DNA from: Neptuniibacter pectenicola
GTDB taxonomy: Bacteria; Pseudomonadota; Gammaproteobacteria; Pseudomonadales; Balneatricaceae
Reading direction: 5' to 3'
DNA: 64,000 nt
Assembly: GCF_001597735.1 (NCBI RefSeq)
Contig: NZ_LUTS01000001.1
Span: forward strand, 124,001 to 188,000
Shown here piece after piece: positions 46,740-52,625 of this stretch. The position numbers and the translations under genes were made by a program. The notes beneath the pieces were generated by a model that saw nothing but the letters and a program-made list of their open reading frames with translations, did no database searches and had not been told where the DNA came from. Numbering within the stretch: position 1 is the first letter of the stretch; the number at the start of each line of letters is the position of its first letter.

Positions 46740-46890
46740 AAAAGCCGCTGCGATAAAGCGTACCTAACCGTTGTCATCCAACCATTGTCATCTAAGCTTC
46801 ATCATGATGATTTAATCTACATGGTTTAACGCGCGGTACAGTGTGGGCACGTTCTACGTTGGGCGCATATAAACCAATTATAGGGTGAAT

Positions 46891-48057
46891 ATGAGTAGAG
46901 TTTGGCAGGTATTTTGGCGCTTTCTTCTATTAGGTTGCACCAGCTTTGGTGGCCCCGCCGCTCACTTAGGCTACTTTCAAAAAACCTTTGTTCAAGACCT
47001 TAAATGGATAGAGCAAGATGCGTACGCACGCCTTATTGCCTTAAGCCAATTTCTACCCGGCCCAGGCTCGAGCCAAGTCGGCTTTGCTTTAGGCCTAAAA
47101 CGCGCTGGCCTTGCTGGGGGGATCGCTGCTTTTTTAGGCTTTACCCTCCCCTCATTTATGATTCTCTATTACCTTGCCACCAGCCAAATCGGCGCGGAAA
47201 GTCTGTGGTTTAACGGGGTAGTTCACAGCTTAAAACTCTTAGCGGTCGTTATCGTCGCCGACGCGGTCTTAACCATGCAGCGTAGCTTTTGTCAGGAAAG
47301 GCGCACCCTGAGTATCGCCGTTATCAGTGCCGCATCGTTATTACTCTTTCCAAGCTTATGGACACAAATGGCCATTCTATTAGTCGCTGCCTGCTATGGT
47401 GTATTTCAGCGCCCGAATGCCGACAATCAACGCACCACCGCCACAGAAAAAATCATGCCTCACTTAGGCTTTACGTTACTGACGCCCCCTTTTATTTTAT
47501 TTATCGCCCTATTCGCGCTGCTTCCCTTACTCGCGTATGTATCGGATTGGGCCGCACTCGCCACCGCCTTTTACCATACCGGTAGTTTAGTGTTCGGCGG
47601 AGGCCATGTGGTTCTACCTCTGCTACAACAGTCCTTAGCGCAAGCGATCGACCTTGACCGATTCCTTGTTGGCTATGCGGCCGCTCAAGCCATACCTGGA
47701 CCGATGTTTACCCTCGCAACCTTTGTCGGTGCAGACCTCGCGCCACAAGCACGCTTTATCGGTGCCTTAGTCGCGACGGTATTTATTTTTTTACCGGGGT
47801 TTCTATTGATATTAAGTGTTCAGAACAGTTGGGAATCGTTAGCGCAAAAACCGCGCGTAGCTGGGGCTGTGTGGGGTATTAATGCGGCCGTGGTAGGACT
47901 ACTGCTTTCAGCTTTATACCAGCCGATTTTTATAAACGCTGTACAATCCGCGGGGGATTTCGCATCAGTGCTCATCGCATTTTTCATACTTAGGCAATTT
48001 AAGCCGCCGATACTGGCACTGGTATTAAGCTTTATTGGCCTAGGGTTATGCGTGTAA
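46891..48057 (+). CDS. chrA: Chromate transporter ChrA
   Basis: About 388 residues, ten or more membrane segments in two homologous halves. CTSFGGPAAHLGYFQ, LSQFLPGPGSSQVGFALG and, in the second half, GSLVFGGGHVVLPLL and AQAIPGPMFTLATFVG are the ChrA signatures. Full-length (two-domain) CHR proteins export chromate in other bacteria; here chromate resistance is an inference. Start ATG 46891 follows an AGGG; a GTG at 46885 is the alternative. Confidence 0.92.
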   Translation: MSRVWQVFWRFLLLGCTSFGGPAAHLGYFQKTFVQDLKWIEQDAYARLIALSQFLPGPGSSQVGFALGLKRAGLAGGIAAFLGFTLPSFMILYYLATSQIGAESLWFNGVVHSLKLLAVVIVADAVLTMQRSFCQERRTLSIAVISAASLLLFPSLWTQMAILLVAACYGVFQRPNADNQRTTATEKIMPHLGFTLLTPPFILFIALFALLPLLAYVSDWAALATAFYHTGSLVFGGGHVVLPLLQQSLAQAIDLDRFLVGYAAAQAIPGPMFTLATFVGADLAPQARFIGALVATVFIFLPGFLLILSVQNSWESLAQKPRVAGAVWGINAAVVGLLLSALYQPIFINAVQSAGDFASVLIAFFILRQFKPPILALVLSFIGLGLCV

Positions 48058-48076: not shown

Positions 48077-51000
48077 TTAATCACTCGGTTTCTGTAAATA
48101 ATCGGCCATCCACACTAACAGCTGATCTTTAGGCATAGGCTTAGCAAAGTAATACCCCTGTACGTAATGACAAGATAAGCTTTCAATAGTATCGAGCTGA
48201 GTTTTTAGCTCGACCCCTTCTGCAATAATTTTCATATTTAAGCTTCGTGCCATGGCAATAATCGCTCTCACCAAGGGGGTTGAATCATCATCCGTATTAA
48301 GGCTGGCGACAAACGCCTGATCTATTTTTAAGTAATCGATCGGAAAACGTTTTAAGTAGCTCAGCGAAGAATAACCGGTACCAAAGTCATCAATCGATAA
48401 ACCAACGCCCAGTGCCCTAAAGCCATTGAGCCAACTCAATATATCAGGGTCGTCATCCAATAAAATACTTTCCGTTATCTCTAAGGAAAGGTCATGCCCC
48501 ATAATCCCTGTATCATCCAAAATACGTTTTACACACTCAGCATCAAAGCCTAAAGGATATTGACGGCTGGACACATTGACCGATAAATGCACCCCTTCAC
48601 AGTGATGGTGAATATCGACAAGGTCAGTACACGCCCGGGTTAATACCCATTCACCGAGCGGTGCAATTAAGCCACTCTCTTCAGCAACCGGAATAAACTC
48701 TACAGGGGAGATCATCCCTTCATCGGGATGGGTCCAACGCGCTAACGCTTCTAAACCAAACAGTGTGTTCGAACGGCAATCAACAATGGGCTGATAGTAA
48801 ACTTCAAACTCATTTTTTTCTAAGCCTTTACGGATCAAATGTTCAAGCATCACACGACGATTGATTTTGTCCTGCATTTTTCGAGCAAAGAAATGGTACT
48901 GGTTACGTCCCGACTCTTTCGCTTTATACATAGCAAGATCGGCCAAACGTAATAAATCATCGGGACGCACCGCATCTACTGGCGCCAATGCAATACCCAC
49001 ACTCGCACCGGTAAAGACTTCAAAGCCATTTAAATCAAAAGGCTGTGACAGGGCATCTACTATTTTTTCAGCGACATGCGCCACATCACTCGGACCCGAG
49101 ATATCCGTAAGGTAGATAACAAACTCATCCCCACCAAAGCGCGAAATGGTATCTGATGAACGAATAATTATTTTTAATCGTTCAGCTACTTCCTGTAATA
49201 ACTGATCACCCACCTCATGCCCCATGGTATCGTTCACGCGTTTAAAGCGATCTAAATCGATAAAGAGCAAACCACTCTGGTGACCTTTACGTTTTGCTAT
49301 TTGTAGATCATGTTCAACACGATCCATAAGAAGGGAACGGTTAGGTAACCCAGTGAGTCCATCATAGTAGGCCTGATAGTGGATCTTCTCCTCCTGTGCT
49401 TTACGCTCAGAGATATCCGTCAAAATGGCTACATACTGTGAGACTTCACCTTTGTCATTAAGCACTACATTGATCGATAACCATTGTGGATATACCGACC
49501 CATCTTTGCGTTTGTTCCACACCTCGGAAGCCCAGCGCCCTTTGTCAATTAGCACGCCCCACATCTTTTTGTAAAAATCGGCATCATGTTTACCGGAACT
49601 AAGCATAGAGGGTTTTTTACCTAAAACATCACTCTCCTGATACCCAGTAATCTCTGTAAATGCGGGGTTCACAGCAGTGACCCTTAATTCCGCATCAGTG
49701 GTCATAATACCTTCAGGGGTTGCATCAAGGACAGCGGCAGCCATCTCTAAATACACATTATCAGCCTTCTGCTGGGTAATATCCTCTTTGATAGCAACAA
49801 AGTTAGTAATAACCCCCGCCTCATCTCTAATCGGCGAAACGGTCACCGATACCCAATATTCAGTCCCATCTTTCTTCCGGTTAGCGAAAACCCCTTTCCA
49901 CTCGTTACCTGCTTTAAGGTCATGCCAAAGTGCAGCATGCTCAACCTCTGAGGTGTACCCAGCTTTTAATATATTTGGGTTCGTGCCTTTCACATCCTCA
50001 AAGGAATAACCGGTCACCTCTTCAAATTTTGGATTCACATACTCAATGAGCCCTTGGACATCGGTAATAACAATCGAGATAGGACTTTGCTCAACAGCCC
50101 GACCGAGTTTTCTTAACTGGTGTTCTGCCCGTTTATAATCAGTAATATCAACTCGAATACACACCAAACCGCCATCACTGGTCGGGGTATCTCGGGCTTG
50201 AAGCCAGCGCCCATTCTTCGTTTTTTGTAACGTAAACGGCAAACCGGTGACTTCATCTTCGACCTCGGTTTCCTCCACGATAAAATCGTGTTTTCTGGTT
50301 TTAAGCTCATCTAAATCGCAAGGGTAGTCAGCCATACTGTCCACCCCATATAGCGCTAGCCAGCGACTGTTGGTAAACCTTAATGAACCTTGAGCTGAAT
50401 ACAGTGCAAAGCCTTCATACAACTTTTCAACCGCATTATGTAACAGCGTGTTGGCCTCTTCCGCCACAATTCGCGAACTGTCGAGACGACGTAAGATAAT
50501 AATAAGAAAGGCGATAAGCACGGTGCATAACATTAATAGTAGGATACTCAGCTGCTGCCGTTCTTTAACCTTAACCTCATGATAATCAAGATAATTAATT
50601 CGCAGCGACTCAAGTAAATTTTTCGTCGGAATCCCGATAAACTGTTTTTTGATATCACTCAGTTTATTCAACCCTTCAACGCTTTTAAGGAGATGGCGCT
50701 GGAAGTTGCTGACTAATTCATTCTCAGGATATAACTGCACCCAATGGTCAAGCGCCTCCATCTCATGGAGCAATTCAGCCTTAGTACTGTCCGTCGCGAA
50801 GTGTTGATAAGCCATCAAGCGGGTTAGATATACATTGGGGTTTATCATACTTAGCGATGGCTGGGTGCGAAATTCATCACTGAGCGTCGGAAGATAAAGC
50901 AACCCATTACGCACTAGTGCCGACTGGGTTTTTAATCGTTCAATGAGTTCGAGCTTTGTTTGTAAATGGATGACTAGATTCTTAACATCGTCCATTATTA

Positions 51001-51298
51001 ATGGATTAGTTGCGCTAAACACGCCGGCAGGTTGAGCCTTCAGCGTATCCATTAAACGATCAAAACGTATATATAGGGCTGAGAGGGAATCGTAATGACG
51101 CATTGACGTGGTCAGTATTTGTAAGCCCGCTTGGTTTAATTCCGCATCAATACGCTCAGCTGACAGTAACACTTCAACCCGCGTTTTATGCTCTGCCGAA
51201 TTAAGGTTGTTAAGCTTAAAAAAGAAGAACAGTAATGCGATAAGCGCGATAAATAAAACCGCCTGCAGGATAATGGAGTTTGATAACTTACGCTTCAT
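48077..51298 (-). CDS. Membrane sensor with DAHL-like, PAS, GGDEF and EAL domains
   Basis: 1073 residues. TM1 (SIILQAVLFIALIALLFFFF) and TM2 (LSILLLMLCTVLIAFLIIIL) enclose about 220 residues of all-helical periplasmic domain, including a RHYDSL stretch as in DAHL sensor domains. Then a PAS-like domain, two clear PAS domains with PAC motifs, an intact GGDEF (722-726) and an intact EAL (850-852, GLEALARW) with ITESILL, DDFGTGYSSL and AEGVE. It could both make and break c-di-GMP; GGDEF may instead be regulatory. Its start overlaps the end of the diheme peroxidase gene in ATGA. Confidence 0.92.
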   Translation of the reverse strand: MKRKLSNSIILQAVLFIALIALLFFFFKLNNLNSAEHKTRVEVLLSAERIDAELNQAGLQILTTSMRHYDSLSALYIRFDRLMDTLKAQPAGVFSATNPLIMDDVKNLVIHLQTKLELIERLKTQSALVRNGLLYLPTLSDEFRTQPSLSMINPNVYLTRLMAYQHFATDSTKAELLHEMEALDHWVQLYPENELVSNFQRHLLKSVEGLNKLSDIKKQFIGIPTKNLLESLRINYLDYHEVKVKERQQLSILLLMLCTVLIAFLIIILRRLDSSRIVAEEANTLLHNAVEKLYEGFALYSAQGSLRFTNSRWLALYGVDSMADYPCDLDELKTRKHDFIVEETEVEDEVTGLPFTLQKTKNGRWLQARDTPTSDGGLVCIRVDITDYKRAEHQLRKLGRAVEQSPISIVITDVQGLIEYVNPKFEEVTGYSFEDVKGTNPNILKAGYTSEVEHAALWHDLKAGNEWKGVFANRKKDGTEYWVSVTVSPIRDEAGVITNFVAIKEDITQQKADNVYLEMAAAVLDATPEGIMTTDAELRVTAVNPAFTEITGYQESDVLGKKPSMLSSGKHDADFYKKMWGVLIDKGRWASEVWNKRKDGSVYPQWLSINVVLNDKGEVSQYVAILTDISERKAQEEKIHYQAYYDGLTGLPNRSLLMDRVEHDLQIAKRKGHQSGLLFIDLDRFKRVNDTMGHEVGDQLLQEVAERLKIIIRSSDTISRFGGDEFVIYLTDISGPSDVAHVAEKIVDALSQPFDLNGFEVFTGASVGIALAPVDAVRPDDLLRLADLAMYKAKESGRNQYHFFARKMQDKINRRVMLEHLIRKGLEKNEFEVYYQPIVDCRSNTLFGLEALARWTHPDEGMISPVEFIPVAEESGLIAPLGEWVLTRACTDLVDIHHHCEGVHLSVNVSSRQYPLGFDAECVKRILDDTGIMGHDLSLEITESILLDDDPDILSWLNGFRALGVGLSIDDFGTGYSSLSYLKRFPIDYLKIDQAFVASLNTDDDSTPLVRAIIAMARSLNMKIIAEGVELKTQLDTIESLSCHYVQGYYFAKPMPKDQLLVWMADYLQKPSD

Positions 51299-52242
51299 TG
51301 CGGTTCCAGTAGGGGGTGCTGCCCAACCAACGAGCGGAGAAACGCCGCAATTAATTCAGCATCCTGCTCATTTATATTGCGGCCCAATTGATATTTAGCC
51401 ATAACCTCTATCGCTGACACTAAACGACGTTCACTTGCATCATGAAAAAAGTAACGTTGTAGTGCCACTAAACGTAAACTTGGAACTTTAAAAAGAAATT
51501 TGTCGTCCTCCACCCCCGTTACATTAAAACGACCATAATCAGCCACTGTAATCGGCTGGCCTCTATCTGAAAAATAGTCACCCATCGTCCCCATATACGC
51601 ATACATATTCCCACCCACATTGCGTCCTTGGTGGCAACTAATGCACCCAAAAGCCTTAAACAGCTGGTAACCCTGCTTTTCGTTTGCTGATAGGGCCTTC
51701 TCATCGCCCTCGAGCCAGCGATCAAAACGAGAATTTAAGGTAATTAGCGAGCGTTCAAAGGTTGTGATTGCATCCGCAACATTTGCTGCGGTTAACCCAT
51801 CGTCATATAGCGTCTTAAATTGTACGGCAACAGCGGGATCGGCACTCAGCTTATCTATCACTTCAAGCCAGTGACTGCCCATCTCTATGGGGTTATGGAT
51901 AGGCCCTGAGACCTGTTGATTTAAGGTACGGCTACGACCATCCCAAAACTGTACAAAATTAAACGCACTGTTATAAACGGTCGGTGTTTTAATGATACCT
52001 TGACTGCCATTAATACCAATGGAGCGAGTACGATTATCAGCCCCATGCTTAGACAATAGATGACAACTAGCACAACTGATCGAGTTATCTTTTGATAGAC
52101 GGTTATCGTTAAACAGTTGCTGCCCTAATTTCACTTTATCCGGTGACAACCCCTCAATGGGAACGAGTGGCGTAATCGGCTCATCAGCAAGCACATCAAA
52201 CGAGACGATAAAACAAAAAACAACACTGATAAATTTCAACAT
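51295..52242 (-). CDS. Exported diheme cytochrome c peroxidase family protein
   Basis: 315 residues with a signal peptide (ISVVFCFIVSFDVLA). Two haem c motifs, CASCH (57-61) and CISCH (200-204), and the peroxidase-family segments KTPTVYNSAFNFVQFWDGRS, PIHNPIEMGS, ITTFERSLITLNSRFDRWL and FKVPSLRLVALQRYFFHDA. The family reduces H2O2 in the periplasm or oxidises other substrates (MauG-type). The gene overlaps the c-di-GMP sensor gene by 4 bases, so the two are made together. Confidence 0.92.
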   Translation of the reverse strand: MLKFISVVFCFIVSFDVLADEPITPLVPIEGLSPDKVKLGQQLFNDNRLSKDNSISCASCHLLSKHGADNRTRSIGINGSQGIIKTPTVYNSAFNFVQFWDGRSRTLNQQVSGPIHNPIEMGSHWLEVIDKLSADPAVAVQFKTLYDDGLTAANVADAITTFERSLITLNSRFDRWLEGDEKALSANEKQGYQLFKAFGCISCHQGRNVGGNMYAYMGTMGDYFSDRGQPITVADYGRFNVTGVEDDKFLFKVPSLRLVALQRYFFHDASERRLVSAIEVMAKYQLGRNINEQDAELIAAFLRSLVGQHPLLEPQ

Positions 52243-52600: not shown

Positions 52601-52625
52601 AAAAAAAGCCCACACAAGGTGGGCT
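52601..52625 (-). terminator. Terminator after gor
   Basis: On the minus strand AGCCCAC / GTGGGCT stem (52619-52625 with 52607-52613), five-base loop, then seven T (52601-52607). Confidence 0.85.

Follow-up and report, generated by a model that had tools for sequence, protein, structure and literature searches.

Several bacterial membrane sensors are driven by a separate periplasmic partner protein, as in the TorS/TorT, LuxQ/LuxP and LytS/XylFII systems. In the HbpS-SenS system of Streptomyces, a secreted haem-binding protein acts redox-dependently on a sensor kinase, although the protein families involved are unrelated to the peroxidase and DAHL families dealt with here. For TorS, the driving protein is the periplasmic TorT (PMC6321045). 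The locus described here lies in the window (the whole stretch of 64,000 nucleotides that was analysed) and resembles TorS in that a helical periplasmic domain is placed between two transmembrane (TM) helices, with a fold similarity of Z 13–15 over about 200 residues. It differs from TorS/TorT in that the proposed partner is a two-haem redox enzyme rather than a substrate-binding protein, in that no sequence homology was found and in that the outputs include GGDEF-EAL. On the enzyme side, classical bCCPs rely on a distal His for their reductive-activation switch, and single mutants of their active-site Gln or Glu are inactive (PMC10094543); YhjA-type enzymes carry a third, N-terminal haem and a membrane anchor (PMC10301912). 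Among 5.39 million open-access papers, none was found that describes a peroxidase paired with such sensors, and the author of the earlier note on this DNA likewise knew of no such system but allowed that one might exist; the DAHL domain (PF19443) itself appeared once in those papers, as the test set of an alignment benchmark. The novelty would lie in a sensor whose periplasmic partner is a diheme redox enzyme, with priority subject to the open-access scope.

Both open reading frames of the pair were recovered at the coordinates of Table 1, and the four-base ATGA overlap that had been claimed for them was found, with the letters CCGCAATGAAGCG at the junction. The gorA gene lies upstream on the same strand, set apart by a terminator-like hairpin, and is located 5' of the pair in other members of the genus as well. 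At the other end, a chromate-transporter family gene (PF02417, window positions 46885–48057) converges with the sensor gene, with 19 bases in between.

Table 1. Coordinates of the features at the peroxidase/sensor locus, in window positions.
Feature	Position	Strand	Evidence or context
Diheme peroxidase, DAHL-paired subfamily; 315 aa	51295..52242	-	ORF, Pfam match, residue alignment
Membrane sensor TM-DAHL-TM-PAS-PAS-PAS-GGDEF-EAL; 1073 aa	48077..51298	-	ORF, Pfam, TM, motifs
Periplasmic DAHL domain (PF19443), Y69/D70/N131/H202; seven-helix model, pLDDT 95	50549..51202	-	
Peroxidase stop codon overlapping the sensor start codon by four bases (ATGA)	51295..51298	-	
Terminator-like hairpin and T run after gorA	52607..52625	-	between upstream gene and pair

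The sensor domain, previously called merely DAHL-like, turned out to be a true DAHL domain (residues 33–250; 110.6 bits versus a Pfam cut-off of 38 bits, covering positions 2–220 of the 221 in the profile). Since TM helices at residues 9–27 and 250–268 bracket it, the domain is assigned to the periplasm. Pfam further placed a PAS_7 domain at 291–392, two more PAS domains, GGDEF at 643–800 and EAL at 822–1054. The GGDEF motif is found at residue 722, the RxxD I-site at 713, and the canonical catalytic motifs of the EAL domain are complete, so that the claim of a membrane sensor of 1073 residues with intact GGDEF and EAL was borne out and the protein belongs among the bifunctional GGDEF-EAL proteins. 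Because both enzymatic domains look active by these motifs, its output would be c-di-GMP. Across 47 diverse DAHL sensors, the output side comprised HATPase_c in 36, receiver domains in 23, GGDEF in 11 and EAL in 9; thus, peroxidase and DAHL are the constant part, and the output domains change from sensor to sensor.

Conservation of the pair was approached from both genes. Starting from the sensor, we searched 494 Pseudomonadota genomes (96 relatives and 398 genomes from the phylum) with the PF19443 profile and obtained 85 DAHL loci above the Pfam cut-off, two of them at contig ends, leaving 83 testable. A two-CxxCH peroxidase frame was located directly upstream on the same strand in 74 of these 83 cases, with an ATGA or GTGA overlap in 53 of the 70 scored pairs. 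Starting from the enzyme, a profile built from 50 paired peroxidases was run over the 398 genomes, and each of its best 56 matches (at least 399 bits) adjoined a DAHL gene by coordinates (56/56); matches below 399 bits were YhjA-like enzymes of 470–510 aa and classical enzymes, interspersed with a few diverged pairs. This neighbour-pair search had been fixed beforehand as a refutation should the pair not be conserved, and on both counts the pair proved conserved. In a wider survey of the best 80 peroxidase loci across 84,980 species genomes (73 diheme, 7 triheme), 70 of the 73 diheme loci were paired with DAHL, the downstream domain being recognized by our own DAHL profile in 69 and by Pfam at 36 bits in one (L265, Sulfurimonas); a DAHL neighbour was seen at 0 of the 7 triheme, YhjA-like loci. 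The adjacent pairs were spread over eight phyla (Pseudomonadota, Cyanobacteriota, Acidobacteriota, Planctomycetota, Verrucomicrobiota, Myxococcota, Omnitrophota and Campylobacterota), several of which contributed the pair from metagenome bins, while the cyanobacterial ones include isolates. Two of the unpaired diheme exceptions (L254, L255) also lack the subfamily motif, and the third (L228, Oscillatoriales) is a signature peroxidase standing alone, with an unlinked DAHL elsewhere in the genome that has all key residues. At L254 and L255 (Myxococcota/Deltaproteobacteria), the peroxidase without motif or DAHL is followed by genes of 329–379 aa that have no Pfam match. Overall, the association is far above chance, and a mirror-tree comparison of peroxidase and DAHL gave r 0.54, the largest of 1000 shuffles reaching 0.12. 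The mirror-tree result is a matter of co-inheritance only, and adjacency together with co-inheritance is no proof that the two proteins touch. No other metabolic gene was widely shared as a neighbour of the pair, the largest shared neighbour groups being signalling genes (PAS, kinase, receiver). Within the genus, G003 and G004 have no DAHL and encode a bCCP of the classical, His-switched type, and the genome of the window has the DAHL-paired type only.

The window peroxidase belongs to the family CCP_MauG (PF03150; 185.8 bits) and carries a signal peptide by inspection and the haem motifs CASCH (57–61) and CISCHQG (200–206), so that the claim of a diheme peroxidase held. Residues W100, Q110, E120, W125, N212 and M281 are present, and position 77 is Ile. 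We compared 140 paired peroxidases with 15 relatives, belonging to the same order, that are not paired. Invariant among the paired enzymes were both haem motifs, W100, N212, H267 and M281. The distal His77 was missing in all 140 (replaced by V, I, F, A or L) and present in 12 of the 15 unpaired enzymes, W125 occurred in 138/140 versus 0/15, and Q205 of the CxxCHQG motif at the second haem in 136/140 versus 0/15. Judged by these residues, the DAHL-paired peroxidases are a distinct type, marked by lack of the distal-His switch, a CxxCHQG second haem and Trp125. With the distal His missing, the reductive-activation switch of classical bCCPs would be gone from the paired enzymes, and the peroxidatic haem should then be permanently open and ligand-ready. 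The active-site Gln110 was lost in 11 and Glu120 in 16 of the 140 paired enzymes, and neither in any of the 15 unpaired ones. As these losses are confined to paired enzymes, some lineages probably have a DAHL partner that has ceased to be a peroxidase, with catalysis relaxed and the partnership kept.

Measured against the known types, the window enzyme shares with classical bCCPs (1iqc, 3o5c, 3hq9) two c-type haems, the Met ligand (M281), the Trp relay between the haems (W100) and the Gln/Glu active site (Q110, E120), but has Ile77 in place of their distal His (His71 of P. aeruginosa CCP). It is in the same Pfam family as MauG and MbnH, yet M281 aligns with the bCCP Met rather than with the MauG Tyr ligand, and its best NCBIfam matches stay far below the cut-offs (MbnH 152 versus 363 bits, MauG 143 versus 444 bits). 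The closest solved sequence is 9qdt, which we take to be Escherichia coli YhjA (Ccp), a non-classical peroxidase; 9qdt likewise lacks the distal His and has a Trp at 125. The YhjA-type differs, however, in lacking CxxCHQG and, being triheme, from the 315-aa window enzyme with two CxxCH only. In the tree, two clades each received an SH-aLRT of 99, one made up of the classical enzymes (13 unpaired sequences with 1iqc, 3o5c and 3hq9) and one of the triheme enzymes together with 9qdt. The DAHL-paired peroxidases fell outside both, and they may have a single origin.

On the sensor side, paired DAHL domains conserved D70 (140/140), N131 (139/140) and H202 (130/140), and further K123, P137 and Y/F69; no conserved Cys, Met or Trp appeared in the alignment of paired DAHLs, and the conserved Tyr69 and Tyr135 were Phe in 12–21%. 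Of 143 paired DAHLs, the weakest-scoring included, 142 had both D70 and N131, as opposed to two (L151 and L292, from one genus) of the nine Pseudomonadota DAHLs that have no peroxidase next to them; among the eight of these nine that cover the site, only L151 has H202. Mere divergence does not account for this loss, since the unpaired L132 and L090 lost the residue set despite high DAHL scores (99 and 85 bits), whereas the paired L265, L290 and L293 kept Y/F-D-N-H at only 34–42 bits. Fisher's test of this association gave p 9e-10, or 6e-8 with orthologues collapsed, both rough values owing to shared ancestry. A structure prediction, as proposed in the earlier note, yielded a confident AlphaFold2 model with seven helices and no other secondary structure (mean pLDDT 95.3, pTM 0.88), which agrees, along with the domain borders and the flanking TM helices, with the helical periplasmic domain of about 220 residues claimed before. 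The nearest solved folds were the ligand-binding domain of McpS (Z 15.3, 3.3 Å over 200 of 218 residues) and the sensor domain of TorS (Z 15.0, 3.2 Å over 197 of 218 residues), with Z values little above the helical-bundle background; a sequence search returned no solved DAHL relative. A helical bimodular fold (HBM/TorS, McpS) is thus likely for the DAHL model, short of proof.

What was obtained here is a conserved operon, mutual specificity, a residue signature of the peroxidase subfamily, DAHL residues whose presence follows that of the peroxidase, and intact outputs. If the peroxidase gave the signal to DAHL, as TorT does for TorS, one would expect the two to keep exclusively to each other while the output can be exchanged. 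We therefore consider it fairly probable that the DAHL receptor obtains its signal from the peroxidase as an obligate periplasmic partner, where contact, signal and the direction of the c-di-GMP change are what we infer. With slightly less confidence, the same may be extended to DAHL receptors as a class, for which a dedicated diheme peroxidase would have been recruited as a redox- or peroxide-sensing protein ligand that supplies the signal to kinases and c-di-GMP enzymes. The two genes would then form a self-contained periplasmic sensing module, with the exported diheme peroxidase as sensing partner and DAHL as its dedicated receptor. Peroxide, reacting with the always-open peroxidatic haem, or a change in haem redox state, by way of the electron-entry haem or at the second haem, would alter the peroxidase; bound to the helical, TorS-like DAHL domain, the enzyme might then cause a conformational change across the membrane that reaches the PAS and GGDEF/EAL domains and alters c-di-GMP. 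The earlier note had proposed a redox or peroxide signal passed to c-di-GMP. The conserved, strictly oriented and mostly overlapping pair argues for a peroxidase-to-sensor signal in the periplasm, which may be peroxide or the redox state; the part on c-di-GMP was too narrow, as this is one output only (36/47 sensors are histidine kinases). Counting against an obligate partnership are the nine DAHL genes that lack the peroxidase neighbour, of which two retain both D70 and N131. A mean-field analysis of inter-protein coupling in 123 pairs gave no signal (top value 6.7 sd versus 6.8–8.8 in shuffles).

The strongest of three rivals sees in the enzyme an ordinary H2O2-detoxifying peroxidase, co-regulated with a sensor that detects some other ligand directly, so that the enzyme would clear or tune a peroxide-related stimulus. 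Q110, E120, W100 and M281 are kept in most paired members, which are on this ground probably active peroxidases; also in its favor, G000 shows only one close CCP at E ≤ 1e-20, and DAHL resembles McpS, a small-ligand binder. We nevertheless regard it as rather unlikely, because only one subfamily serves as partner and the classical bCCPs of the same genomes are not found there, because the partner is still present with the 16 of 140 paired enzymes that lack the catalytic Glu, and because the DAHL key residues decay without the peroxidase.

The polar site D70-N131-H202 leads to another rival, in which the enzyme makes an oxidised small molecule that diffuses to this site and is bound there without any protein–protein contact. 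These residues do look like a ligand site and are mostly gone in DAHLs without the enzyme, but the surroundings of the pair show no recurrent gene for transport or biosynthesis, and we know of no such diffusible product of bCCP-type enzymes, which makes this reading improbable. Equally little speaks for a maturation of the MauG/MbnH kind, where the diheme enzyme would oxidise DAHL residues and thereby make or activate a ligand site: pairs of the MauG type typically involve an obligate neighbour and the MbnH and MauG families are the best, albeit distant, NCBIfam matches, yet the second haem has the bCCP ligand Met281 in 140/140 instead of the MauG Tyr, and the DAHL domain offers no conserved Trp, Met or Cys, with its tyrosines at 69 and 135 exchangeable for Phe.

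If the peroxidase is indeed the signal-giving partner, this would be the first function for DAHL, a Pfam sensor domain without a described role in the open-access literature searched, and would show how bacteria may sense peroxide in the periplasm or the redox state of haem. The few periplasmic proteins known to drive membrane sensors would be joined by an enzyme, and a respiratory-type enzyme would emerge as the antenna through which the kinases and c-di-GMP enzymes of a widespread family probe the periplasm. The pair occurs in tractable hosts (the Pseudomonas fluorescens group, Comamonas, Pseudoalteromonas and cyanobacteria), so that the proposal is directly testable.

Some individual loci merit separate mention. 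An apparent peroxidase-DAHL-GGDEF fusion of 777 aa (L092:1921-4251, G046) was rejected, as it is a frameshift joining two overlapping genes: the first TM helix is still there, so that a fusion would have a wrong topology, and at the junction the C-terminus of the peroxidase can still be read in the +1 frame (SLLQSLNGIPHPELIP*). The frameshift is a sequencing error or mutation and no designed fusion. At L086:2905-6138 (G001, same genus as the window), the sensor frame breaks off at about 400 aa, and a few bases on another frame begins that contains a PAS domain; this split sensor is a broken gene or an assembly error. The pair is also found on plasmids of Gloeocapsa and Vitreoscilla (L300, L302), so that horizontal transfer is possible; in the NCBI annotation of these copies, the two genes bear separate names, 'cytochrome c peroxidase' for one and 'DAHL domain-containing protein' for the other (Gloeocapsa pGLO7428.01, Vitreoscilla pVF1). 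Finally, the 3.1-Mb genome G133 harbors five different pairs (L099, L104, L108, L116 and L154), whose peroxidases are 40–52% and whose DAHLs are 75–82% different from one another, and the divergence of these five makes G133 a good system for partner specificity.
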